Source: Pirellulales bacterium
GTDB taxonomy: Bacteria; Planctomycetota; Planctomycetia; Pirellulales; JAICIG01
DNA length: 64,000 nt
Assembly (NCBI GenBank): GCA_035533075.1
Contig: DATLUO010000194.1
Coordinates: 1 to 64,000 of the forward strand
Direction: 5' to 3'
Shown here: positions 7,914-52,267 of the stretch, piece after piece
How the letters are laid out: each line of letters starts with the position of its first letter
How positions within the stretch are numbered: position 1 is the stretch's first letter
Position numbers and translations under genes: made by a program
Notes under the pieces: generated by a model
What the model saw: the letters and a program-made list of their open reading frames with translations, nothing else
Database searches by the model: none
What the model was told of the DNA's origin: nothing

Positions 7914-8163
7914 CAGCCGGCTTTAGCCGGACTTAGAGTATTTGCCACCAGCTTTAGCTGGTGGTTGTCGCCCCGAGTACCCGTTTCGTTAGCCGGCTTC
8001 AGCCGGCTTTTGCATTTGCGGCTTTAGCCATTGATTCAAAGCCACTTTCCACATTTCGGAAGCCCGGCTAAAGCCGGCTCAACAGCAACAATGATTGGCA
8101 CCCCGGCACCACCAGCTAAAGCTGGTGGCAAAGCGTTGAAAGCCCGGCTAAAGCCGGCTCAAA
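7914..8163. repeat. Array of short hairpin repeats (GCCGGCTTTAGCCGG and CCACCAGCTTTAGCTGG types)
   Basis: Between hsdR and the next gene lie at least six hairpins of two alternating kinds. One is CCACCAGCTTTAGCTGGTGG (7951-7970 and, reversed, near 8109-8128); the other is GCCGGCTTTAGCCGG or its near variants (about 7917, 7993, 8065 and 8142). There is no coding content. The same two hairpin types recur in the same alternating pattern inside the cusA gene at 46858-47041. The array is a dispersed-repeat insertion that breaks the usual tight hsdM-hsdS-hsdR spacing. Confidence 0.85.
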
Positions 8164-42673: not shown

Positions 42674-42712
42674 GTAGGGTGGGACCAGCGAGCTTGCGAG
42701 CGCCGGCCCACC
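42674..42712. repeat. Dispersed 39-bp hairpin, copy 2
   Basis: GTAGGGTGGGACCAGCGAGC then TTGCGAGCGCCGGCCCACC. The opposite-facing copy 3 lies at 42855-42894, and the heptamer array fills the space between them. Confidence 0.85.
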
Positions 42713-42715
42713 GTC

Positions 42716-42817
42716 ACAGGGTTCAGGGTTCAGGGTTCAGGGTTCAGGGTTCGGGGTTCAGGGTTCAGGGTTCAGGGTTCGGGGTTCAGGGTTCAGGGTT
42801 CGGGGTTCAGGGTTCAG
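42716..42817. repeat. GGTTCAG heptamer tandem array
   Basis: About fourteen head-to-tail copies of GGTTCAG, with interspersed GGTTCGG variants. A shorter array of the same unit is at about 51993-52030, and a reversed one at about 22790-22820. Unique, non-palindromic spacers are absent, so it is not a CRISPR. Confidence 0.9.
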
Positions 42818-42854: not shown

Positions 42855-42894
42855 GGTGGACCGGCGCTCGCAAAGCTCGCTGGTCCCACCCTAC
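42855..42894. repeat. Dispersed 39-bp hairpin, copy 3
   Basis: Reverse orientation to copy 2 (GGTGGACCGGCGCTCGCAAA...CCCACCCTAC), with one extra A. Its end overlaps the stop region of the arsenate-reductase gene. Confidence 0.85.
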
Positions 42895-43928
42895 TTGCCA
42901 ACTTGCCGTTCCAATTGCCGTCGCGCTTTGAGCATCACGGCGAGCATGAGCCGGCCCAGGTCGTCGCGCCGTTCCGCGTATTTCGCGGCCTCATATTCGC
43001 TGTCGTCGTAGGCTTTGGGGTCGAGGTAGGGCATCGAGATGCGCCGCGACGCGCCTTTGACCAACGGGCATTCCGCGTCGGCTTGCGTGCAGACCATCAC
43101 GGCCGCGAAGCCGCTCTGTGGGTTGGCGGAATGGCCGTAGTGCTTGGAGAATTCGATGGTTTCCATGGTCGAGGTTGCGTCGCTCGACGCTTCACCCCAG
43201 CGCACCACGTAGCTTGGATTCGGCGACCCCTCCGCGCCTCGCTCGGCCTCCTCGCCGGTCGGCTCAATCTCGACGCCGATCGCCCGCAACGCGATGATCG
43301 TCCGCGGGTTAAAGGCACTCGGCGCCGTGCCGCCGCTGTAACAGTGGACCTGCGGCAACCCCCAGTAAGCGGCCGCCGCGTTGCCCATCGTGGCTCCCAG
43401 GATGCTGCGGCGGGAGTTGCCCGTGCAAACGAAGAGGATCGCCAGCGGCCTGCCGGGCTGGTAGTTGGCCGCGATCCACTCCGCCAGCTTCTCGCCGGCC
43501 GCGAGATGTGCGGCGTCGATCCGTTCGAAGGAGGTTGTCAAAGCGTCGAGGTGAGCCGCGACGCGGGGCAACAGCCGGCGGCGCGTCTTCGGCGCTTGCG
43601 AGTCGAGCGCTTGACGCATTTCGGAGGCTTGCAAACGGTCGTCGGCGCCGGCCAGCGTGTGGTAGGTTTTCGCATCCATCAGGTTGTTCTCAATTGCCCG
43701 GTTGGTGATCGTCCCGTCTTTGGCCAGCGCGGCCGTAAGCAGCGCCTTCGTCCGCTCGTCGTGCCTGGGATCGGCGGCTTCCGCGGTACCAAACCGCTGC
43801 ACCGTCCAAAGTGCCCGAACGAAGGCGCCGGCGTCTCGCTTTTCATCTCGTTCAACGGCCAAGCAGACCGCCGCCGCCGCAATCAGCCCAAACACGCCAA
43901 ACCAACAGCAGACCCTGATGATCGTCAC
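42891..43928 (-). CDS. Arsenate reductase-like protein with membrane anchor and N-terminal domain
   Basis: A 345-residue two-part protein. The C-terminal part is a low-molecular-weight phosphatase-type arsenate reductase: Cys168-TGNSR-Arg174 (CX5R) and the resolving pair in VCTQADAECP (Cys-x6-Cys), as in thioredoxin-coupled ArsC. The N-terminal about 155 residues start with a hydrophobic segment (VCCWFGVFGLIAAAAVCLAV) and are otherwise helical and of unknown role. If the segment is a signal or anchor, reduction would occur outside the cytoplasm, which is odd for ArsC. It lies between arsR2 and acr3. The reductase Cys triad is complete. Confidence 0.82.
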   Translation of the reverse strand: MTIIRVCCWFGVFGLIAAAAVCLAVERDEKRDAGAFVRALWTVQRFGTAEAADPRHDERTKALLTAALAKDGTITNRAIENNLMDAKTYHTLAGADDRLQASEMRQALDSQAPKTRRRLLPRVAAHLDALTTSFERIDAAHLAAGEKLAEWIAANYQPGRPLAILFVCTGNSRRSILGATMGNAAAAYWGLPQVHCYSGGTAPSAFNPRTIIALRAIGVEIEPTGEEAERGAEGSPNPSYVVRWGEASSDATSTMETIEFSKHYGHSANPQSGFAAVMVCTQADAECPLVKGASRRISMPYLDPKAYDDSEYEAAKYAERRDDLGRLMLAVMLKARRQLERQVGK

Positions 43929-44887: not shown

Positions 44888-47800
44888 CTACATTTGCCCT
44901 GCCGCTGTGCGCCGCTTCTCTTCTTGCAGTCTCAACCACCGCCCGCGGCGGACCCAATAGAACCGCACGGGCAAGAACAGGTCAACCACTTCGTCGGAAA
45001 TCAGCAGCCCGCCCAGCACCGGCAAGGCCATCGGCGCCAGGATCTCGCCGCCCACACCTTTGGCAAACACCATCGGAAAGATGGCGATGATCGCCACGCC
45101 TTCCGTCAACAGCTTGGGCCGCAGCCGGTGCACCGCGCCTTCGATCACCGCCTGACGCAATTCGGCCAACGACTCGATATTTTCCAGCCCGCCGCGCTTT
45201 TCGATCGCTTCGCGCAGATAGACCAGCATGATGATGCCCGTCTCGGTGGCCATGCCGAAACAGGCGATGAAGCCCACCCACACCGCCACGCTGAAATCCA
45301 TCGGCGGCGCGTCCCAGCCCTGCACGATCTTGGGGAACAGGTACATGAAGAACGCCCCGCCGGCCAAGGCTTCGGGCACGGCCAGCATCATCAGGATGGC
45401 GTCCATCAGGTCGTTGTAGGTCAGATAGAGAATCACGAAGATCAGCACGATCACCACCGGGAACACCACCCGCAGCGTCTTGGCCGCCCGCACCTGGTGC
45501 TCGAACTCGCCGCTCCATTCGATGTGGACGCCTTCGGGCAGCTTGACCTTCTGGGCGACCACGCGCTGCGCCTCGTCGACAAAGCCCACCACGTCGCGGC
45601 CGCGCACCATGAGCGTCACGTAGTTCAAGAGTTGGCTGTTTTCACTTTTGATCATGGCCGGCCCGCCGGCCACGCGCACGTCGGCTACGGCGCTCAGCGG
45701 GATCAATGGCTTGCCGCGGGCGGCATGTCCCGGCGAGGCCGCGTGCCCGGCGCTCTGGCCCGTGGTGTTCATCGCCTCGCCCGTGGAACCGGCAGTTGAC
45801 GCCATCGACGAGCCGCCGCCGGTGGCCATGCTGCCCGGACTGACCAGCAAACGCCGCACGCTCTCTTCGTCCTCGCGTTCGCTGCGCGCATAACGGATGC
45901 GCACGGGGAAGCGGTCGCGGGCCTCGACGGTATAAGTGATGGCCTTGCCCGCCAGGGCCACTTCAATCTCGTTCTCGATGTCTTCCACCGAGATGCCGTA
46001 GCGGGCGGCGTTCTCGCGGTCGATGTCGATCTCCAGGTAACCCTTGCCCATGAACGGAGCGGCGATCACGTCGCGGGCGCCGTTGATGGGCTTGAGCGCC
46101 GCCTCCACCTCCTTGCACACGCGATCGATGGTGTCGAGATCGGGCCCAAATACCTTGACGCCGATGTCGGTGCGCACGCCGGTCGAGAGCATTTCGATGC
46201 GGTTGATGATCGGCTGCGTGAAGATGTTGCTCCAGCCGGGCACCTGCAGCACGCGGCCCATTTCGTCGTCGACCAGGTCGCCCTTGGGACCGGTCTGCCG
46301 CGGCCAGAAGAAGACCCGCTGCTTGAAGTCGCTCTCCAGTTGCTCGCGCAAGGCGACGAAGGGCCGCAGCGCGCCGGCGTCGAACGGTTTGCCAAGTTGG
46401 TCGTCGAGCGACGCCGTGGCGAATTTTTCCGCTTCGGCCGCGTGCGCGGCCCCGGCAAGCTGTCCGACGTTCTTCGCGGCCTTGACGGTTTCTTCCAGGG
46501 CGTACCAGCAAAACTCGCGGACGCCTTCGTCGAACAGTTCCCAATTGACGTGCTTCACGCGGTCGCGCCACAGATCCATGCGCCGGTGCTCGACCGCGGC
46601 CAGCAGCTCGCCGGCGAACGTGCGATGCTCGCCGCCCAGCGCCTCGGCCACCGCGTTGGCCAGCGTGCGAAACCGAGAGTCGTGGAGCTCCAAAGCTTCG
46701 GCCTCGTCGTCGATCAGGCCACGTTCTTTGAGCGATCGTGCGACATCCTGGCTCAACTGCGTCACGTCTTCCAGCGACGGGTTCTTGGCCAGCCAGTGGC
46801 CATACTTGGTGGTCAGCTCATCGACCAAGGGGTCGCCTTCCGACGCGCCTCCGTCTGCCACCAGCTTTAGCTGGTGGTAGCCAGGTCCGTCAACTTGGCC
46901 GGAGCCGGCTTTAGCCGGGCTTCTCGACCGTGTGCCGGTCGTCGTGGCCGGTGAACTGGGCGACGGGGTAGGAAGCCCGGCCAAAGCCGGCTCAAGGGAA
47001 ACCTTCTTGTCCCCCGAACCACCAGCTAAAGCTGGTGGCAAATGGGAGCCTCCCTCGGCTTTCTTGTGCTCCATTTCCGCACCGGTCTGCCGCAATGTTT
47101 CGTTCACAGCGAAGCGCGTCAGTTCGCGCTTCAGATCGCTTTCCATCTCTTCATACCGCAGCAAGGCCAAGTCACGCAGCGTTTCGTCGAACCGCTCCAG
47201 CGCCTTTTGCGTGGCGTCGTTCACCAGATTGTTCCGATCGTCACCGGTCGTCGCGGTCAGATAGCCTTGCTTTTCCAACGCCGCGAGTTCGACTTCGACT
47301 TGCGCACGAGCATCGTTGAACTTCAGCACGCGCTTGGGCCACAGCTCACGTGGACGGAAGTTGACGAACGTCTCGACCATATCCAGCGGCGAGGGGTCGG
47401 TCGGCGTGTTTGCCCGGCCCGCCTTGCCGATCACCGACTCGACCTCGGGGAAACCACGCAAGAGCGCATCGCGGGCCTTCAGATCGTCGCCCGATTGCGT
47501 CACGCTGGCCCGCGGCACCGTGATCGGCATGTCGAGCGTCGTGCCTTCGTCGAGGGCGGGCATGAACGCCACGCCGATCTTGGGAAACTTGTAGGCCCAA
47601 AGGCCGATCAAAATCAGGCTGGTCAAGGTGGTGGTTTGCCAAAGCAGTCGGCGCTGTGTGCGAAAGGCAATCCAGAACAGCGCCAGCACCGGCACGCCGG
47701 CGCAAGCGACAATGAACCACGCCAGCCATTCGACCGGATTGATGCGTCCCATAAGCACTAGCGGCACGGTGAACGCGCTGAACGCGGAACCCATCCAATT

Positions 47801-49672
47801 TCCCGCCCAGACAACTCCGCCCGCCAGGGCCATCAGCGCGACGGCGATCAATACCAGTCCACAATCTCCCCAAAACGCTTTGAAGTCGGGGCCGTGCTTG
47901 CCGGTGATGGACATCACGGTCAACGACGTCACCAGGAAGAAAACTCCCAGAAACGTCTGCCGCCAGGCGATTTCGCTCGCCCCCTGCCCGATGATGGCCT
48001 GCAAGGGAAACATGCCCGCCGCCAAAATCAACAGCACGGCGAACATCCACATCACCAGGTTCCGCCGCGGCAAGGCCCACGTCAGCAGCGGCTTGTAGAT
48101 GTTGATGAAGCTGCGGACGATCCAGTTCTCTTCCTCGCTCCGCAACCGCCCCTTGATGAACGTGGGAATCAAGGCCGGCACCAGCGTGATCGAAATCAAG
48201 GCCACACCGAACAGGGCGAAGCTCTTGGTGAACGCCAGCGGGTGAAAATACTTCCCTTCCCGCCCGCTGAGCATGAACACGGGAATGAACGAAATCAGCA
48301 TGATCATCACCGAGAAGAAAATCGGCCGGCCCACCGTGCGGCAGGCGGGGATCACCAGCTCGCGGATGTCGCCCGTCACCCGGCGGTCGCCAAAATGCTC
48401 CTTCAGCGCGTGCGTGGCGTTCTCGACCATCACGATCGCCTGGTCGACCAGGATGCCGATCGAAATCGTGATGCCGGCCAGCGACATGATGTTGGCCTGG
48501 ATGTCGATGATGCCCAGCATGCGCAACAGCCACATCGTCAGGAACGAAAACAGCACCGCCAACGGCAGCGTGATGCAAATCACGAACACGCTGCGGAGGT
48601 GCGAGAGGATCAGCAGGATGGCGACCGAGGCGATCAGCATCTCGTGCCACATCACTTCGCTGAGCGTGTGAATGGCGCCGTGAATCAGCCGCGTGCGGTC
48701 GTAGGCCGGCACGATGTGAACGCCTTCGGGCAAGCCCGGCTGAATTTCCTGAATCTTCTGCTTGACCCGCTCGGTCACTTCCAACGGGTTTTCTTCGTGC
48801 CGCATCAGCACCACGCCGCCCACCACGTCGTTGCCGTCCTTTTCATACACGCTGCGGCGGAACTGCGTGCCAAGTTGCACTTTGGCGATGGTCTTGACGT
48901 AGATCGGAACGCGGTTGACCTCCTTGATGACGGTGTTTTCGATGTCGGCTTTGTCTTTGATCCAGCCCAGGCCGCGGACGATGTACTCGGCGTTGTTCTT
49001 TTGCACCACTCCGCCGCCGGCCGGCATGTTGCTCTTCGAGACCGCCGCATACAGCTCGCCCAGGGTGATGCCGTAGGCCCGCAGGGCTTCGGGCCGCACG
49101 TCGATCTGATATTCCAGCGGCGTGCCGCCCACGTCGGCCACGTCGGCCGCGCCCGCCGCCGCGTTGAGCTGCGGGGCGATGTAGAACTTGTTGAGCGCCC
49201 AGAGCCGGCCCGAGTCGACCGGGTTCGAGGGACTGTCTTCCACCGTATACCAGAAAATCTGCCCCAAGGCCGTGGCATCGGGCGCCATGTAAGGCAGCAC
49301 GCCCGGCGGCAGGAAGTTGGCGGCTTCGGCCAGCTTTTCGGTGACGCGCTGCCGGGCGAAGTAAAAGTCGATGTCGTCCTCGAAGATCAGCGTGATCATC
49401 GAGAAGTTGAACTCGCTGCTGGAGCGCACGGCGCGCATGCCGGCCAGCCCTTTCAGCTTGAGCGAGAGGGGATAGGTCACCTGGTCTTCAATTTCCCAGG
49501 GGCTGCGGCCCATCCAATCGGTGAACACGATGACCTGGTTTTCGCTCAGGTCGGGGATGGCGTCGACCGGCGTATGGAGCATGGCATAGACGCCCGCCAC
49601 CGTCAGCGCGGCGCCGAGAATCAGCACCAGGAAGCGGTTGCGGATCGAGGCTTCGATGATGCGTTCAATCAT
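44888..49672 (-). CDS. cusA: Oversized CusA/CzcA-type RND metal efflux pump
   Basis: A 1594-residue inner-membrane proton-driven metal pump; typical relatives have about 1040 residues. The N-terminal half is standard (LLHTPVDAIPDLSENQVIVF; the TM4-type GILVDQAIVMVENATHALKE). Later come PALDEGTTLDMPITVP and, after a long insert, NIFTQPIINRIEMLSTGVRT. Extra parts: added membrane helices at about 590-690; a mostly helical insert of about 360 residues (about 47330-46240), in which hairpin repeats encode roughly 877-940; and a Ser/Gly/His-rich loop (about 1285-1325). The core is intact. cusB lies upstream on the same strand. Substrate Cu/Ag or Zn/Co/Cd is not decided. Confidence 0.9.
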   Translation of the reverse strand: MIERIIEASIRNRFLVLILGAALTVAGVYAMLHTPVDAIPDLSENQVIVFTDWMGRSPWEIEDQVTYPLSLKLKGLAGMRAVRSSSEFNFSMITLIFEDDIDFYFARQRVTEKLAEAANFLPPGVLPYMAPDATALGQIFWYTVEDSPSNPVDSGRLWALNKFYIAPQLNAAAGAADVADVGGTPLEYQIDVRPEALRAYGITLGELYAAVSKSNMPAGGGVVQKNNAEYIVRGLGWIKDKADIENTVIKEVNRVPIYVKTIAKVQLGTQFRRSVYEKDGNDVVGGVVLMRHEENPLEVTERVKQKIQEIQPGLPEGVHIVPAYDRTRLIHGAIHTLSEVMWHEMLIASVAILLILSHLRSVFVICITLPLAVLFSFLTMWLLRMLGIIDIQANIMSLAGITISIGILVDQAIVMVENATHALKEHFGDRRVTGDIRELVIPACRTVGRPIFFSVMIMLISFIPVFMLSGREGKYFHPLAFTKSFALFGVALISITLVPALIPTFIKGRLRSEEENWIVRSFINIYKPLLTWALPRRNLVMWMFAVLLILAAGMFPLQAIIGQGASEIAWRQTFLGVFFLVTSLTVMSITGKHGPDFKAFWGDCGLVLIAVALMALAGGVVWAGNWMGSAFSAFTVPLVLMGRINPVEWLAWFIVACAGVPVLALFWIAFRTQRRLLWQTTTLTSLILIGLWAYKFPKIGVAFMPALDEGTTLDMPITVPRASVTQSGDDLKARDALLRGFPEVESVIGKAGRANTPTDPSPLDMVETFVNFRPRELWPKRVLKFNDARAQVEVELAALEKQGYLTATTGDDRNNLVNDATQKALERFDETLRDLALLRYEEMESDLKRELTRFAVNETLRQTGAEMEHKKAEGGSHLPPALAGGSGDKKVSLEPALAGLPTPSPSSPATTTGTRSRSPAKAGSGQVDGPGYHQLKLVADGGASEGDPLVDELTTKYGHWLAKNPSLEDVTQLSQDVARSLKERGLIDDEAEALELHDSRFRTLANAVAEALGGEHRTFAGELLAAVEHRRMDLWRDRVKHVNWELFDEGVREFCWYALEETVKAAKNVGQLAGAAHAAEAEKFATASLDDQLGKPFDAGALRPFVALREQLESDFKQRVFFWPRQTGPKGDLVDDEMGRVLQVPGWSNIFTQPIINRIEMLSTGVRTDIGVKVFGPDLDTIDRVCKEVEAALKPINGARDVIAAPFMGKGYLEIDIDRENAARYGISVEDIENEIEVALAGKAITYTVEARDRFPVRIRYARSEREDEESVRRLLVSPGSMATGGGSSMASTAGSTGEAMNTTGQSAGHAASPGHAARGKPLIPLSAVADVRVAGGPAMIKSENSQLLNYVTLMVRGRDVVGFVDEAQRVVAQKVKLPEGVHIEWSGEFEHQVRAAKTLRVVFPVVIVLIFVILYLTYNDLMDAILMMLAVPEALAGGAFFMYLFPKIVQGWDAPPMDFSVAVWVGFIACFGMATETGIIMLVYLREAIEKRGGLENIESLAELRQAVIEGAVHRLRPKLLTEGVAIIAIFPMVFAKGVGGEILAPMALPVLGGLLISDEVVDLFLPVRFYWVRRGRWLRLQEEKRRTAAGQM
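46858..47041. repeat. Hairpin repeats inserted in frame inside cusA
   Basis: Four hairpins: CCACCAGCTTTAGCTGGTGG at 46858-46877, a GCCGGCTTTAGCCGG type at about 46910-46922, GCCCGGCCAAAGCCGGCTC at about 46974-46992, and CCACCAGCTAAAGCTGGTGG at about 47020-47040. They read in frame as ALAGG, EPALAGLP, SPAKAGSG and HQLKLVAD. They are the same two kinds, in alternation, as the intergenic array at 7914-8163. Confidence 0.88.
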
Positions 49673-49868: not shown

Positions 49869-51986
49869 TCATCTGTGTTTCATCCGTGGCTTTCCCCGCT
49901 CTTTCAGATCCTTGACCTTGGCGAGCGCCTTTTTCGGGTCGGCTTTCGCGCCCTCTTCGCACCCGGCGCAGCAGAGGAACACCGGCTGACCATCGATCAG
50001 CAGCTTTACCGGCTTGCCCATCGAGCCGAGCCGGTTCTCTTCTTCCACCGGGCAAAAGCGCTGCTCCTCGGCCAACTTGCGGTCCTCGGGCGAGAGCTTG
50101 GCCAGCGCGCCCTTGATCCGCGCATCCGGGTCATTCTTGGCCGGCCTGGACGGCGCGGGTGTCGGCGCCTTCGCCGCATCGCCGCTGGCGGGCCTGCCGC
50201 CGCGCAGCTTGGTCACTTGCGCCAACGTTTTCTCCGGATCTTCCAGCGCCTGCTTCTTGCAGCCCGCGCAGCAGACGAACACCGTCTGGCCGTCCACCTC
50301 GAGCTTCACCGGCGGACCCATCGATCCCAAGCGGTTGTTCTTCAAGATCGGACAAAACTTTTGCGACTCGGCGGTTCGCCGGTCTGCCGGCGAAAGACCG
50401 GCCAACGCGGCCTCGATCTTGGCGTCGGGATCCTCGGGCGTCGACGGTCGCACGGTGGTCACGCCGGAGCCGCTCTTCGATCCGCCGCCGCTGCCCCCAA
50501 AGTAGATCGAGCCGGCCGCCGGGTTGAGCCGCGTTTCCGCATCGACCAGAAACGAGCCCGTCGCCACCACCAAATCACCCGGCTTCAGTCCCGACAGCAC
50601 CGGGTAAAACATCGCACCCTGGGGCCCGTTCATGCGCGGCCCCAGCTCCACCTGCACCCCCTCGAACACGTTGGGCAGGCTCTCGCGGTAGACGATCCGC
50701 TGCTTGCCCGTATCGATCACCGCGCTTTCCGGCACGGCCAGCACCAGCCCTTCGCCGAGCTGGGCCTGACGCGGAGCATCGTCGGCCACCGCGTCGCGGA
50801 GCATCTCCACGTCGCGCGGCGGCACTTCGATGGTCACGGTCGCGGTCGTGCCGGGACGCAGCTTGTGGCCGGGGTTGGGCAGCTCGCAACGAATCGTGAC
50901 GGTGCGCGTGGCCTCGTCGACGTGCGGATAGACGAACGCCAGCTTGCCGTGAAACGGCTCGCCCGGAAAGGCACGGCTGGTGGCCACGACGGGCAAGGCA
51001 TCCGGGCTGTCGGCGGGAATCGGCCGGTGCGTCTGCCGCTGAGGCAAAAAGGGAAAATCTTCCTCATACACCTGGGCCTGAATCCAGACGGTCGATAGGT
51101 CGGCCACGTCGTAGAGCGGCGTGCCCGTCTCGACGTACTGCCCCTCGACGACGTACTTCTGGATGATGTGCCCGGTGATCGGCGAGCGAATCTTGAGGTG
51201 CGTATTGGCCTTGCCGGTCTTGGCCAGCTCGTCGAGCTGGTCGTCGCTGATGCCCAACAGCCGCAGCCGCTCGCGCGTGCTGGCGGCCATTCGCCGGTCT
51301 CCGCCCTGCACGGCACCGACGAACTCGCGCATGCCGCTGTAGAGATCGGGGCTGTAGAGATCGGCCAGCACCTCGCCGGCGTCGACGGTGGTGCCCGTCT
51401 CGTTCACGTACAGCTTGTCGATTCGTCCGCCGACCCAGGCGCTCACTTTCCGCTCTTCGCGTTCGTTGAACTCGATGAAGCCCACGGCGCTCACCTGCTT
51501 GGTCAGCGGCACGTAGTCGGTGCTCCAGGTGCGCACGCCGGCCAGCACCACGCGATAGGGCGAGATCTGCACGCGGTTGACCACGCCGGGCGGCAGGGCC
51601 TCTTCGTGGACGTCGCCCTTTTTGCGCTTCGAGAGCGGCATGAAGCAGATCGGGCATTTCTCTTTGCTGTTGTCGCGGACCACCGCGGGATGCATGGGGC
51701 AGAACCACTCGACGTCGCTCGACGCGACCGTGGCCGCTTCGGCCGGGCGGGTATAGCGGTCGTAGTAGGCGACCAGCGTGTCCCATTGCGTGATCACGAT
51801 GCCGATGGCCGCCAGGATGCCGATGAACCGCAGCCGGGCCAATTTGACCAGGATGATGAAATCGAACCACCACCAGGCTTTTCGCCAGCCGGTGAGTTCG
51901 GGCGGGGCGCGCAGGCCGCCCTCGTCGATCGGTTCGGGTTCGTCGTGTGGCGGCGGCGGCAGGCGGTTGTTGTAGCGGTCGGACAT
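49869..51986 (-). CDS. cusB: CusB-type adaptor with extra Cys-rich metal-binding domains
   Basis: A 705-residue membrane-fusion protein of the metal pump. One membrane helix lies at about 48-68. It is followed by a heavy-metal-binding domain, WFCPMHPAVVRDNSKEKCPI then CFMPL (94-118). The adaptor body includes SPYRVVLAGVRTWST, IRSPITGHIIQKYVVEG and DSPDALPVVATSRAFPGEPF. The C-terminus (about 540-705) holds two related repeats, each with FCPI/FCPV, NRLGSMG, a strand pair and VCCAGCKKQA or LCCAGCEEGA. These could take up Cu(I) or Zn(II) and pass it to CusA. No cusC-like outer-membrane gene is in the window. Confidence 0.9.
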   Translation of the reverse strand: MSDRYNNRLPPPPHDEPEPIDEGGLRAPPELTGWRKAWWWFDFIILVKLARLRFIGILAAIGIVITQWDTLVAYYDRYTRPAEAATVASSDVEWFCPMHPAVVRDNSKEKCPICFMPLSKRKKGDVHEEALPPGVVNRVQISPYRVVLAGVRTWSTDYVPLTKQVSAVGFIEFNEREERKVSAWVGGRIDKLYVNETGTTVDAGEVLADLYSPDLYSGMREFVGAVQGGDRRMAASTRERLRLLGISDDQLDELAKTGKANTHLKIRSPITGHIIQKYVVEGQYVETGTPLYDVADLSTVWIQAQVYEEDFPFLPQRQTHRPIPADSPDALPVVATSRAFPGEPFHGKLAFVYPHVDEATRTVTIRCELPNPGHKLRPGTTATVTIEVPPRDVEMLRDAVADDAPRQAQLGEGLVLAVPESAVIDTGKQRIVYRESLPNVFEGVQVELGPRMNGPQGAMFYPVLSGLKPGDLVVATGSFLVDAETRLNPAAGSIYFGGSGGGSKSGSGVTTVRPSTPEDPDAKIEAALAGLSPADRRTAESQKFCPILKNNRLGSMGPPVKLEVDGQTVFVCCAGCKKQALEDPEKTLAQVTKLRGGRPASGDAAKAPTPAPSRPAKNDPDARIKGALAKLSPEDRKLAEEQRFCPVEEENRLGSMGKPVKLLIDGQPVFLCCAGCEEGAKADPKKALAKVKDLKERGKPRMKHR

Positions 51987-52267
51987 AGGGTTGAGGGTTC
52001 GGGGTTCAGCGTTCAGGGTTCAGGGTTCAGGTGGCTCGGGCAGAGCCTGGCCAGTTCGGCGCCGGCGCTGCCGAATCGCTTTGCGGCCAGGCGATGCCCC
52101 GGTGCTTCGTTTGGCGTGCAATCCAAAATCCAAAATCGAAAATCCGAAATTCGGCGGGGCGGCCGCGACACGGGCCGGCCGTTGGTGCTAACCCTCCGGT
52201 CCCGTGTGCGGCCGCCGTCTCCGTAGGGTGGGACCAGCGAGTTTGCGAGCGCCGGCCCACCAGTCGC
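51987..52267. repeat. Repeat-filled gap: heptamers, AATCCAAA tracts, hairpin copy 4
   Basis: About 51993-52030 carries five GGTTCAG-type heptamers. About 52120-52153 has ATCCAAA/ATCGAAA/ATCCGAAA near-repeats. The dispersed 39-bp hairpin (copy 4, GTAGGGTGGGACCAGCGAGT...) is at 52223-52261, just before the stop of the next gene. No gene is seen. Confidence 0.75.

Follow-up and report, generated by a model that had tools for sequence, protein, structure and literature searches.

IS200-type TnpA transposases act on single-stranded hairpins at the ends of their elements (PMC6006769). REPINs and BIMEs, which are associated with the RAYT transposases (TnpA_REP), consist of hairpin doublets in inverted orientation that are scattered through genomes, mostly between genes, and their Y1 transposase gene is flanked by hairpins of its own type (PMC3116915, PMC2817692, PMC6006769); the element described here shares both properties. 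PATEs of Haloquadratum walsbyi are, again like the present element, transposase-free and bounded by near-terminal palindromes related to IS200/IS605 ends, and some of them arise by core loss; PATEs have been described as fused ends of IS605-type elements (PMC3119063). With respect to translated palindromes, Rickettsia RPE and the intragenic REPs of O. terrae, Thauera, and others are, as here, both read in frame and found between genes (PMC3733652). Indeed, REPs inside genes, in clusters coding for 43–82 amino acids, are known from several bacteria, and their tolerance in linkers has already been argued (PMC3733652), while frame-keeping REP insertions have been reported inside tnpA itself (PMC6006769). 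The statement in the initial annotation that use of one hairpin both between genes and as protein code is rarely noted was, given these reports, too strong.

The window, that is, the whole 64,000-nucleotide stretch analysed, contains an intact cusA/czcA gene (44888–49672, minus strand) for a heavy-metal RND pump of 1594 amino acids, the product of which exceeds the family cut-off of TIGR00914 (CusA/CzcA; 907.2 bits versus 701). A gene for a cusB-type membrane-fusion partner lies upstream of it (49869–51986, minus strand; PF16576 HlyD_D23, 212.6 bits). The pump carries an extra, mostly helical domain of roughly 300 residues (46148–47440, minus strand) that is common to planctomycete orthologs and is missing from a Saprospiraceae relative. 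The hairpin block described below does lie within an insert of about 360 residues, as annotated, but the planctomycete orthologs that have the domain around the block contain no hairpins; the wider insert was not made by them but is a conserved domain normal for planctomycetes. Elsewhere in the window, the heptamer CAGGGTT forms tandem arrays, with 14 copies at 42717–42817 and 6 copies at 51987–52031; the former array is enclosed by the arms of an inverted repeat (about 42676–42712 and 42858–42895) around GTGGGACCAGCGAGCTTGCGAGCGCCGG, which looks like another palindromic element.

Four hairpins of two families are found inside cusA—namely B (CCACCAGCTTTAGCTGGTGG, 46858–46877, plus strand), C (GCCGGCTTTAGCCGG, 46904–46918, plus strand), c, an inverted C with one mismatch (46977–46991, minus strand), and b, an inverted B (47019–47038, minus strand). 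These positions were borne out and lie far beyond chance, with 0.01 and 0.04 matches expected from shuffles of the whole window. The cusA copy has TCTG/CAAA at its ends, comparable to the TTTG/CAAA recurring outside hairpin B in other copies, and from these recurrent ends the limits of the whole palindromic element can be placed at 46854–47042 (minus strand). The block, which is in frame in both length and phase, thus comprises 189 bp or 63 codons, slightly more than the about 60 residues at 46858–47041 that had been annotated. No stop interrupts the coding frame through it, and since its length is divisible by three and a stop-free frame is available, insertion left cusA open; the resulting stretch reads HLPPALAGG...SPAKAGSG...HQLKLVAD. 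Also as annotated, the same hairpins make up a non-coding array at 7916–8158 (no strand assigned), a long form with the order C B C c b c and no open frame across it, whereas the cusA copy, with the order B C c b, is without the outer C hairpin, a point that counts against the explanation given below. Folded as single-stranded DNA, the cusA element and the array gave z values of −11.4 and −10.1, respectively, relative to shuffled sequence. No Rfam family matched the hairpin element near its gathering score, ruling out a known RNA family as the identity of the element.

The genome (8.54 Mb in 296 contigs) contains 39 exact B hairpins, versus none for a reversed-pattern control. The genome-wide search proposed in the annotation yielded 45 hairpin clusters, of which 37 contain two or more hairpins, in a regular C-B-C then c-b-c order; this census relied on pattern searches, which miss strongly diverged copies. 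The consensus of 50 half-elements is TGTTTG-CCACCAGCTTTAGCTGGTGG-T...TGA-GCCGGCTTTAGCCGG-GCTTCTCGA, with the foot TTTG at hairpin B and mainly TTGA/CTGA, mostly TNGA-like, at hairpin C. Nearly all clusters lie outside convincing genes, except for a single copy internal to a coding sequence and two borderline cases. Open frames over the other clusters were inspected and then scanned for protein families, and only for the cusA copy was homologous protein seen to either side; L128 and L133 were rejected as further in-frame coding copies, their open frames matching no family. Of the 84 ways of combining copy, strand, and frame, 8 give an open frame, and only 5 of these also have a length divisible by three, so that harmless coding insertion is expected to be rare; one was found. 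In a partial element, B C, at L131:3072–3137 (G000:C162), the open frame is shared with an upstream cytochrome c domain, and the element may extend the C terminus of that protein. A near-full B C c b c element at L124:3033–3258 (G000:C96), which precedes a glycosyltransferase family 9 domain in the same frame, is probably 5′ non-coding. Two diverged copies in tandem at L147:2737–3183 (G000:C271), with the B hairpin more mutated, possibly represent an older subfamily.

A candidate enzyme is encoded in the same genome. An intact, single-domain IS200-type Y1/HUH TnpA of 142 amino acids (G000:C218:5051–5476, minus strand) exceeds the IS200/IS605 cut-off (NF033573, 65.5 bits versus 55) and contains the motifs HVH (HUH), WQ, and YIANQKEHH, the last with the catalytic Tyr. 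Its gene sits between C-B-C-c and b-c-b-c, with subterminal hairpins at both ends (L139/L208), an arrangement also seen in its relatives (L209–L220). Among the Y1 transposase genes of the genome, it is the only one found with B/C hairpins, so that the case for movement in trans rests on association.

That association extends to other genomes. The exact B hairpin is present in 4 of 247 genomes of the order, and the closest TnpAs (100, 82, 65, and 62% identical, with the next at 50%) are encoded in exactly these four, in each case with hairpins beside tnpA; such a coincidence would have a probability of about 7e-9 at random, the true figure being weaker on account of kinship and the choice of the top four. 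A search of 392 genomes of the phylum added only one further TnpA below 1e-30 (59% identical), in the genome with the most hairpins (10), its gene lying 65 bp from one of them. Three genomes of the same family speak against the association, having the hairpin while no TnpA was detected in them at 1e-30; one of these is congeneric with a TnpA carrier, and the gene has probably been lost or left unassembled. The hairpins flanking TnpAs at 46–51% identity are related ones with a loop of the same kind, TTTA on one side with TAAA on the other, or else TTCA/TGAA, and the variant hairpin CCCGGCRTTTAYGCCGGG is found in all nine genomes with these TnpAs versus none of three genomes that lack the gene. 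In G220 and G356, the copies carry outer ends of their own, TTAG/CTAA and the longer CCGTTGCTTG/CAAGCAACGG. Thus, with TnpA relatives having their own hairpin variants and copies their own ends, the hairpins and TnpA have changed together. None of the hairpin copies seen in other genomes, G001, G050, G220, and G356 among them, was a clear coding copy. A second planctomycete Y1 TnpA clade (L224, L225, L228, L229, L234, L237) has its own recurrent hairpin beside its genes, CCCAGGGC-loop-GCCCTGGG or close to it.

Taken as a whole, these observations make it very probable that the cusA block is a copy of a non-autonomous REPIN- or PATE-like element, mobilised in trans by TnpA and tolerated as protein. 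The dispersed element would be built from a B-C half-unit and its inverted counterpart c-b, in some copies with an additional outer C, and would work in the manner of a REPIN or PATE. The resident TnpA would recognise the B/C hairpins on single-stranded DNA and move or copy two-ended, gene-less derivatives in trans; one such copy would have entered the extra helical domain of CusA at a variable linker, leaving cusA open and the element translated as a disordered loop of 63 residues. The association of the hairpins with TnpA across genomes is observed, and it is from this that we infer that TnpA moves the element. An improbable alternative is that the cusA copy arose through gene conversion or recombination among the repeats instead of through TnpA. 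The many near-identical copies could recombine, and one pair, L113 and L145 (G000:C6 and C257), has flanks as well as the element in common, in inverted orientation, which reflects either duplication of a region or variation between strains in the assembly. However, the cusA flanks share nothing with other copies beyond the palindrome, and the hairpin–TnpA association is tight across families.

That the block is an insertion is indicated by comparison with orthologs, which had been proposed as a check. In an alignment of about 50 cusA orthologs, the block is absent from all of them, and their linker, measured from one conserved anchor to the next, is 36–54 residues long, with a mode of 40, versus 105 residues in the window CusA; subtraction of the 63-residue element leaves 42, comparable to the mode. 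Protein conserved in place of the block despite diverged hairpin DNA, the finding that had been named as contrary evidence, was looked for and not seen in any of these orthologs. A near-identical strain with an empty site was not present in the collections searched, and as the nearest orthologs are only about 75% identical, the exact ends and timing of the insertion are not fixed. The block is also alone in the gene in being without a codon-position signature, with a GC3 minus GC2 of −0.03, whereas the 1405 windows of cusA clear of the block average 0.44 and never fall below 0.11. An AlphaFold model of the domain fragment, made with 28 orthologs, gave pLDDT values below 50 at fragment residues 138–197—the element occupying about 134–196—and confident helices on either side, at residues 66–128 and 202–219, so that the block is predicted to be a disordered loop between two helices. 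The suggestion that its place in a non-conserved linker explains its tolerance is supported by both this model and the variable linker length in orthologs.

It is presumed that the pump is made and works, and with the predicted disorder, the variable linker, and the unadapted codon use, the translated loop is probably neutral. Selection for the insert, with the 63-residue loop altering or regulating the pump—compare the speculation on REP-tagged repair genes—is very unlikely. Such selection would fit the intact, stop-free frame, given how few of the combinations above preserve it, but codon adaptation is lacking, disorder is predicted, and the insert is found in one species only, at a site that is a variable linker.

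Two remaining explanations are very improbable. A misjoin of a repeat into cusA would be conceivable in a genome that is split into 296 contigs and probably metagenome-derived, since repeats cause misjoins, but cusA is in frame on both sides of the 63-codon block and the linker minus the block approximates the ortholog mode, neither being expected of an artefact, which makes it hardly credible. The other view, that the block belongs to the conserved planctomycete CusA domain as such and bears hairpins by chance, draws on its position inside that domain and is just as implausible, being already refuted by the absence of exactly this stretch from the orthologs, in addition to the occurrence of the same DNA in non-coding places and the missing codon-position signature.

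There is a slim chance that the cusA copy is still mobile, with precise excision by TnpA giving rise to two in-frame forms of the pump, with and without the loop. Were this so, protein length would vary reversibly under the action of a new REP-type system with an IS200 subclass 1.2-like transposase instead of a RAYT.

No description of this hairpin family or TnpA clade was found in the literature searched. What looks undescribed is the TnpA clade with the subclass 1.2 signature, together with its hairpins; translated intragenic REPs are already known. A single genome here contains one mobile hairpin family in both non-coding and translated copies, along with its candidate enzyme, and empty orthologs serve as the control; this suggests that REP-like amplification extends beyond RAYTs to IS200-type TnpAs in Planctomycetota. 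Compared with REPINs and BIMEs, the element has no GT[AG]G 5′ foot, its feet being TTTG and mostly TNGA-like, and the enzyme is ruled out as a RAYT by YIANQKEHH, which has the Y---Q of IS200 proteins and not the Y...NP motif (Table 1, PMC6006769). As in PATEs, C-B-C and c-b-c occur both in dispersed copies and around the resident tnpA; unlike PATEs, which have no terminal inverted repeats (PMC3119063), the element is one long inverted repeat, its halves being inverted copies with several hairpins per end, and its host is a bacterium. The RPE, O. terrae, and Thauera cases (PMC3733652) belong to unrelated taxa and are likened by description, not by hairpin sequence, and here a candidate transposase was identified. 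As to class, TnpA_Y1 class 3 is likewise present in Planctomycetes, accompanied by multiple copies of atypical hairpins, but its Y----Q motif, 178 amino acids, and CnGA foot, compared with Y---Q, 142 amino acids, and a variable foot, rule out membership (PMC6006769). The motifs and length instead fit subclass 1.2 (WQ, YIKNQKEHH, ~148 amino acids), an assignment made by motif only, and while that subclass is listed without REPs (PMC6006769), the TnpA described here has hairpins beside its gene.
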